Shown: positions 11,201-14,374 of the stretch, in pieces | Numbering within the stretch: the stretch's first letter is position 1 | Layout of the letters: each line of letters opens with the position of its first letter | From: Thermogemmatispora onikobensis | GTDB lineage: Bacteria; Chloroflexota; Ktedonobacteria; Ktedonobacterales; Ktedonobacteraceae | Length of the DNA: 64,000 bases | Direction: 5' to 3' | Assembly: GCF_001748285.1 (NCBI RefSeq) | Contig: NZ_BDGT01000032.1 | Location: forward strand, 1 to 64,000 | Notes under the pieces: generated by a model | Told to the model about the DNA's origin: nothing | Databases searched by the model: none | What the model saw: the letters and a program-made list of their open reading frames with translations, nothing else | Translations under genes and position numbers: made by a program

Positions 11201-11260
11201 ACGCATGCCCGCACGCATGCCCGTACGCATGCCCGTACGCATGCCCGTACGCATGCCCGC
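11201..11260 (+). repeat. Five 12-bp tandem repeats carrying in-frame ATG codons
   Basis: Five copies of ACGCATGCCCGY lie head to tail across the start of the binding-protein gene. Each copy supplies an in-frame ATG (11205, 11217, 11229, 11241, 11253) and encodes Met-Pro-Ala/Val-Arg. Because the unit is 12 bp, gain or loss of copies preserves the frame. GGGAGGA at 11194-11200 fits the first ATG best. Confidence 0.9.
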
Positions 11261-14131: not shown

Positions 14132-14162
14132 TTGACAGCGTCCCCCGATAGCATGCTATAAT
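14132..14162 (+). promoter_or_regulatory. Strong promoter of an isolated mini-gene
   Basis: TTGACA (14132-14137), a 19-bp spacer and an extended -10 TGCTATAAT (TATAAT at 14157-14162). The long spacer is offset by consensus hexamers and the TGn extension. Only the short unit 14163-14374 lies between it and a terminator. Confidence 0.75.
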
Positions 14163-14192
14163 AATCGTGTCCCGCAGAGGGATATCCTGAAG

Positions 14193-14221
14193 CCTATCTC
14201 AGGCGACAGCCTTCCGATAGG
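14193..14221 (+). promoter_or_regulatory. Hairpin in the 5' leader of the mini-gene
   Basis: CCTATC (14193-14198) pairs with GATAGG (14216-14221), and inside it AGGC pairs with GCCT around a GACA tetraloop. It ends 10 bases before the Shine-Dalgarno sequence. Confidence 0.5.
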
Positions 14222-14247
14222 TGAAGCCCAGAAAGGAGGCGATACCT

Positions 14248-14310
14248 ATGCTGAAGTTGCCTGTTCGCTTACTAGGGATGGTGTTTCAGGTGGACAGAGT
14301 TGGCCCGTAA
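14248..14310 (+). CDS. Putative 20-residue peptide, or structured small RNA
   Basis: A 20-codon frame (MLKLPVRLLG then MVFQVDRVGP) begins 8 bases after a perfect AAAGGAGG (14232-14239). It is the only frame in a short transcription unit with its own consensus promoter and intrinsic terminator, so it is either a real micro-gene or part of a small RNA of about 205 nt. A GGCCC-GTAA-GGGCC hairpin (14302-14315) overlaps its 3' end, and the loop contains the stop codon. The product is cationic and hydrophobic. I know no family that matches it. Confidence 0.45.
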   Translation: MLKLPVRLLGMVFQVDRVGP

Positions 14311-14340
14311 GGGCCGTTTTCCAGAGGATCAGTAAATGGA

Positions 14341-14374
14341 GGCCGAATCAGGAGTGATTCGGCCTTCTTTTTTT
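14341..14374 (+). terminator. Intrinsic terminator of the mini-gene
   Basis: A perfect 10-bp stem (GGCCGAATCA with TGATTCGGCC) around a GGAG loop, followed by TTCTTTTTTT. This is one of the clearest factor-independent terminators in the window. Confidence 0.9.

Follow-up and report, generated by a model that had tools for sequence, protein, structure and literature searches.

The window, a stretch of 64,000 nucleotides from Thermogemmatispora onikobensis, contains on its forward strand a 243-base unit (positions 14132-14374) that is a short copy of a class-wide gene family. The unit begins with a promoter read from the sequence (14132-14162), made of TTGACA (14132-14137) and TATAAT (14157-14162). 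Both hexamers are perfect, and the 19-nt spacer, compared with an optimum of 17 nt, ends in TGC, resulting in an extended -10 element (TGC.TATAAT, 14154-14162). The promoter scan covered spacers of 16-18 nt, and this promoter is absent from it because of its 19-nt spacing. Two 5' hairpins follow: P1 (14169-14183, GTCCC-GCAGA-GGGAT), corresponding to P1 of the longer form described below, and a hairpin with a GACA tetraloop (14193-14221, CCTATC...GGC-GACA-GCC...GATAGG). Next come the Shine-Dalgarno (SD) sequence AAAGGAGG (14232-14239), a 20-codon frame, MLKLPVRLLGMVFQVDRVGP, running from ATG to TAA (14248-14310), and the hairpin H4 (14302-14315, GGCCC-GTAA-GGGCC), which overlaps the stop codon and holds it in its loop. 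An intrinsic terminator with a T-run, located by the terminator scan, closes the unit (14338-14374). The preliminary description had listed the promoter, the GACA hairpin, the SD sequence, the frame, the hairpin around the stop codon and the terminator, and all of them are present; two details differ, namely the 19-nt promoter spacing and the terminator stem, given as 10 bp but counted as 13 pairs by the scan. The predicted fold of the transcript is better than that of 200 shuffles (z = -5.3).

A separate promoter-like site was found in the window scan between this terminator and the next gene. Elsewhere in the window, a 12-bp unit, ACGCATGCCCGT, is repeated head to tail about five times (11201-11259) at the start of a substrate-binding-protein-like frame. 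These copies add MPVR repeats at the possible N-terminus of this frame, the start of which differs in congeners.

In a DNA search of relatives, three genomes of the same genus (G002-G004) proved to carry the unit at nearly full length, with 87-95% identity to the window unit. These genomes keep every element from the promoter and 5' hairpin through the SD and the frame to the hairpin, and the pairs of the terminator stem vary on both sides among them. The GACA-loop hairpin is near-invariant within the genus; the corresponding position of the longer form is occupied by the helices P2 and P3. In more distant genera, the DNA matches are limited to the SD-frame-hairpin part. When translated, these matches converge on one peptide, MKxP[VI]RLLGMVFQ[VI]D, encoded by differing codons. 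The core peptide of the family is KKP[IV]RLLGMV[FY]Q[IV]D, and nearly all family frames follow an SD of the GGAG type.

A degenerate pattern allowing up to two mismatches matched 40 of the 47 class genomes, while the reversed control pattern had zero matches. The covariance model R1, built from 43 copies, recognized 44 of the 47 Ktedonobacteria genomes and all 14 class genomes of good quality (at least 90% complete and at most 5% contaminated). Named records with matches include Thermogemmatispora carboxidivorans and Thermosporothrix hazakensis. Across a 400-genome Chloroflexota sample, R1 matched Ktedonobacteria only, plus one chance match. The match outside the class in G188 (E 0.004 over 400 genomes) is weak and was attributed to chance on inspection of its sequence. 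A Bacteroidetes match sits within a longer frame and was rejected, and the viral contigs that were searched gave no match.

The preliminary description could not assign the unit to any known RNA or peptide family, and this is borne out by the databases. Nothing scored above threshold in Rfam, at gathering or permissive thresholds, for the window unit and several relatives; the best score was that of SdsR/RyeB (19.5 bits, for a threshold of 38), aligned mainly to the terminator. Representative peptides had no match in Pfam, NCBIfam or PHROGs, and only chance matches, to a phosphatase, among PDB sequences. No description of the family was found in the open-licence literature. Judged by its sequences, this class-wide RNA family with a predicted micropeptide is real and previously undescribed in the literature searched; it is new, but of a known general kind.

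Comparison of 49 units, comprising 44 distinct core sequences, gave a pS of 0.71 versus a pN of 0.14, and the column entropy of the 44 cores was 1.21 bits at third codon positions versus 0.22 at second positions, contrasts that are inflated by the collection of most units with a two-mismatch pattern fixing first and second positions, which favours conserved amino acids. The same synonymous bias is found in the two codons upstream of the search pattern. Units retrieved by the covariance model only (G010, G032, G034 and G040) retain the frame, with K-K-P...V-x-Q-x-D at unchanged spacing, and whole-DNA searches also recovered units that agree in the frame and in the codons around it. Against column shuffles, the codon-substitution score reaches z = 6.5 in the true frame and -1.8 to 2.5 in the other five. 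As the codon changes are overwhelmingly synonymous, the frame is predicted to be translated and, on this codon evidence, is under purifying selection as a protein across the class. The preliminary description had envisaged either an expressed micropeptide or a small RNA whose frame has a regulatory role, and had stated that lack of conservation in close relatives would refute it. The frame is conserved class-wide with mostly synonymous changes, and the RNA structure is conserved too, which lends support to this proposal at the level of comparative analysis. The most conserved residues are located toward the C-terminal end of the peptide. No signal sequence was recognized by eye, no stretch has transmembrane length, and the helical amphipathicity is not above that of shuffles (fraction 0.25-0.33).

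Conservation extends beyond the frame into H4. An alignment of 43 units is gapless from the K-K-P codons through the end of this hairpin, and in every one of these 43, as in four units found later, exactly 7 nt separate the D codon from H4. This distance is independent of the stop codon, which is the next codon in most units, one codon later in, for example, L071 and L072, and within H4 in the window unit, L062 and L068. Length differences (L109, L110 and L147) are confined to the H4 loop, and outside the frame nothing varies less than the H4 stem. Elsewhere in the family H4 reads GCCCGU-NNAN-GCGGGC, and the version found in the window's genus is a rebuilt one, with its register moved one base earlier. 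Given ribosome geometry, a structure at such a distance would meet the ribosome during the decoding of the last sense codons. A conserved switch between leader and frame was rejected as a family feature, since individual units range between 0 and 28 expected pairs in the predicted pairing.

The family occurs in two forms. Form A, with about one copy per genome and a length of ~480 nt, consists of its own promoter, 5' hairpins, SD, frame, H4, a large 3' domain and a terminator. Its promoter, of the extended -10 type (TTGACN...TGNTA), was found at the corresponding place in 22 of 22 loci examined in the window's family. Both P1 and P2 show compensatory changes: in the helix P1 (GUGUUCC/GGAACAC), a G-C pair has become A-U on both sides in 5 of 21 loci, and in P2 (CCAGGG/CCCTGG) A-U takes the place of G-C in 6 of 22. 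A further helix, P3, lies upstream of the SD. The 3' domain is built of multiple helices, with 88% of cells paired, and shows 36 both-side changes, compared with 11.3 in shuffles and 8-23 when slid. Before the terminator, the 3' domain of form A in family f1 contains a near-invariant stretch, CACRGGAGUUGUGNAGAA (L071, ~1350-1400), a candidate single-stranded interaction site.

Form A is mostly found opposite lepA-mnmA, in convergent orientation, in families f1, f3 and f4. This synteny argues for a single ancestral locus and against control in cis, since there is usually no gene downstream of a unit that faces lepA. In genera g8 and g13 (L122, L123, L124, L125 and L129), the convergent lepA is replaced, possibly by rearrangement, by a co-directional homocysteine-methyltransferase-like gene that lies ~430-600 nt past the form A frame. 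A second, diverged form A with a 3' domain, KKLIRLLGVVFQMDEECP, was observed in L131 (G023:C879), in a genome whose other form A lies on C528.

In form B (the window unit, L067, L068, L073 and L126), H4 is followed by the stretch toward the terminator, without the 3' domain. In two lineages several frames share one transcription unit, two in L067 and three in L068, with SD, frame and H4 repeated each time. Both forms coexist in the genome of the window, where form A is located at G000:C37:23777, and Thermogemmatispora carboxidivorans PM5 also carries both. Contrary to the preliminary description, the unit is thus not isolated; on sequence grounds it is a self-contained gene and a short paralogue, form B, of a Ktedonobacteria-specific family that combines an RNA with a predicted micropeptide. 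Form B is not essential, since it is unmatched in G005 and broken in G001, a genome of the same genus. There (G001:C2, L150:3466-4220), the promoter is present and the body is replaced, from just past the transcription start, by ~740 bases with a decayed TnpB-like frame, CGFQEHADLKAARNIQ; the flanking genes are intact.

Several known systems resemble parts of this arrangement. TnaC-type arrest leader peptides, which control a downstream gene in cis, resemble the family in having a short peptide, conserved close to the last codon and again ~11-13 residues upstream, and an adjacent RNA element at a fixed distance. However, form B ends at a terminator without a downstream cis gene, and form A, mostly convergent with lepA, usually has none. 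In tmRNA, too, a structured RNA contains an internal short frame with a hairpin after it, but the family frame has its own SD and ATG. Moreover, no RF00023 or other Rfam match was found at the locus, and a separate tmRNA scored above the family cut-off in 37 of the 47 class genomes, including that of the window (G000:C15:44009-44375). The unit does not resemble 6S RNA either. RF00013 matched none of the 47 Ktedonobacteria genomes, with a positive control in four well-known genomes; Ktedonobacteria may have a diverged 6S RNA or none. SpoVM is a 26-residue spore-coat peptide of Bacillus that works with SpoIVA in coat assembly, and Ktedonobacteria also sporulate. Both peptides are very short and conserved, with a conserved proline, and the family peptide resembles SpoVM in K-L-P..L-G..V. 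A relation to SpoVM was rejected: SpoIVA (PF09547) is absent from 47 of 47 class genomes and was found in the Bacillus control, no Pfam match was obtained, and the helical moment of the family peptide does not exceed that of shuffles, in contrast to an amphipathic helix. Staphylococcal RNAIII, of ~514 nt with many hairpins, encodes the 26-residue delta-haemolysin. Form A is likewise a highly folded RNA of ~500 nt with one internal micro-frame; in contrast to RNAIII, it belongs to another phylum, has no Rfam match above threshold, is unrelated in peptide and structure, and gives no sign of a haemolysin or virulence function.

The closest parallel is offered by dual-function small RNAs, including VcdRP/VcdP of Vibrio cholerae (PMC8672173), SgrS/SgrT and SR1/SR1P. 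The likeness lies in an independently transcribed intergenic RNA with its own terminator, an SD, a very short frame and, in form A, structured non-coding parts. Predicted promoters and terminators delimit an independent transcription unit in the window and in its congeners, the codon-level purifying selection points to a small protein, and the covarying 3' domain of form A is consistent with a second, non-coding function, the domain being missing from form B. No sequence relation was found, however, the family core has only ~14 residues, and the window paralogue has lost the non-coding 3' domain. By analogy, the family would work most like small RNAs such as VcdRP (PMC8672173) or SR1, with the RNA-level function as a candidate.

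Leader hairpins, SD, peptide and H4 are common to both forms, and the function should therefore be sought in these parts. We lean, by a small degree, toward a dual-function RNA with a trans-acting micropeptide as product. The micropeptide would then be the main product and would exert its effect in trans, on some cellular target. The dual function would belong to form A, as a source of both the peptide and a structured 3' domain that is perhaps regulatory. Form B, including the window copy, would have lost the role of the RNA while still producing the peptide, and tandem frames would raise the peptide dosage in some genomes. H4 may serve to pause the ribosome at termination or to protect it, or it may make the message more stable. 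Such a peptide is favoured by the tandem frames within single predicted transcripts and by the lack of a target in cis.

An effect on the ribosome, on the other hand, is favoured by the invariant spacing of H4 and by how strongly the C-terminal end of the peptide is conserved. In the main alternative, which is less probable, the nascent peptide and H4, positioned at the mRNA entrance, would stall the ribosome on the last codons, and the output would be the stalled state instead of a free peptide; in form A, the stall would govern how the 3' domain folds or is processed. The conserved K-P ~11-13 residues before the end, the V-x-Q-x-D at the end, conservation that is strongest toward the C-terminus and the lack of an amphipathicity bias all agree with pausing, as do the fixed 7-nt distance despite a stop at D+1, D+2 or inside H4, and the restriction of length changes to the H4 loop. 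The H4 spacing fits pausing at least as well as a trans-acting peptide. Pausing has no evident cis output, though, form B being followed by a terminator only and form A usually by no co-directional gene; tandem frames are hard to explain by it, and the leader-frame pairing able to form a switch is not conserved. The two readings are not exclusive. More doubtfully, the family could be a class-defining core gene of ~15-20 codons, in which the nascent chain and the hairpin at its fixed 7-nt distance act jointly on the ribosome during translation. Such a gene would yield as its output, on a stand-alone RNA, either a stalled-ribosome complex or a sensor of the translation state, and not control of a downstream gene. 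If this is true, the gene is among the smallest conserved protein-coding genes known.

A purely RNA-level regulator, a small RNA whose translation is incidental, is improbable. The strongly conserved structure of form A and the covarying helices of its non-coding 3' domain would suit such a regulator, but third positions vary while amino acids are conserved over 44 distinct cores, and form B keeps the frame without the 3' domain; the codon signal largely refutes this reading. It is very improbable that the family is a type I toxin-antitoxin pair or some other selfish or mobile element. A short, hydrophobic and cationic peptide, a strong SD, a structured leader, the variable number of tandem copies and the absent or broken form B in G005 and G001 recall such elements. 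Form A, however, is a near-universal, mostly single-copy and syntenic core locus, the hydrophobic-rich stretch has only ~11 residues, no viral contig gave a match, and the window scan found no sigma-70-like promoter on the minus strand, such consensus scans being weak evidence. Chance assembly of motifs, or decay of a larger gene, has next to no probability, for although the unit is short and each motif is common singly, it is refuted by the class-wide conservation, together with the frame-specific codon signal, the stability of the fold and the empty reversed control.

This RNA, with its predicted micropeptide, is present in practically every member of the class; its ~14-residue core falls below the size limits of gene callers, and the family seems to have been overlooked. 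The family offers a clean test case for why a very short frame is kept, whether for the product peptide, for a ribosome pause or for both. As the family exists both in a long form and in a short one that is sometimes repeated in tandem, it provides a natural experiment that separates the function of the peptide from that of the RNA.
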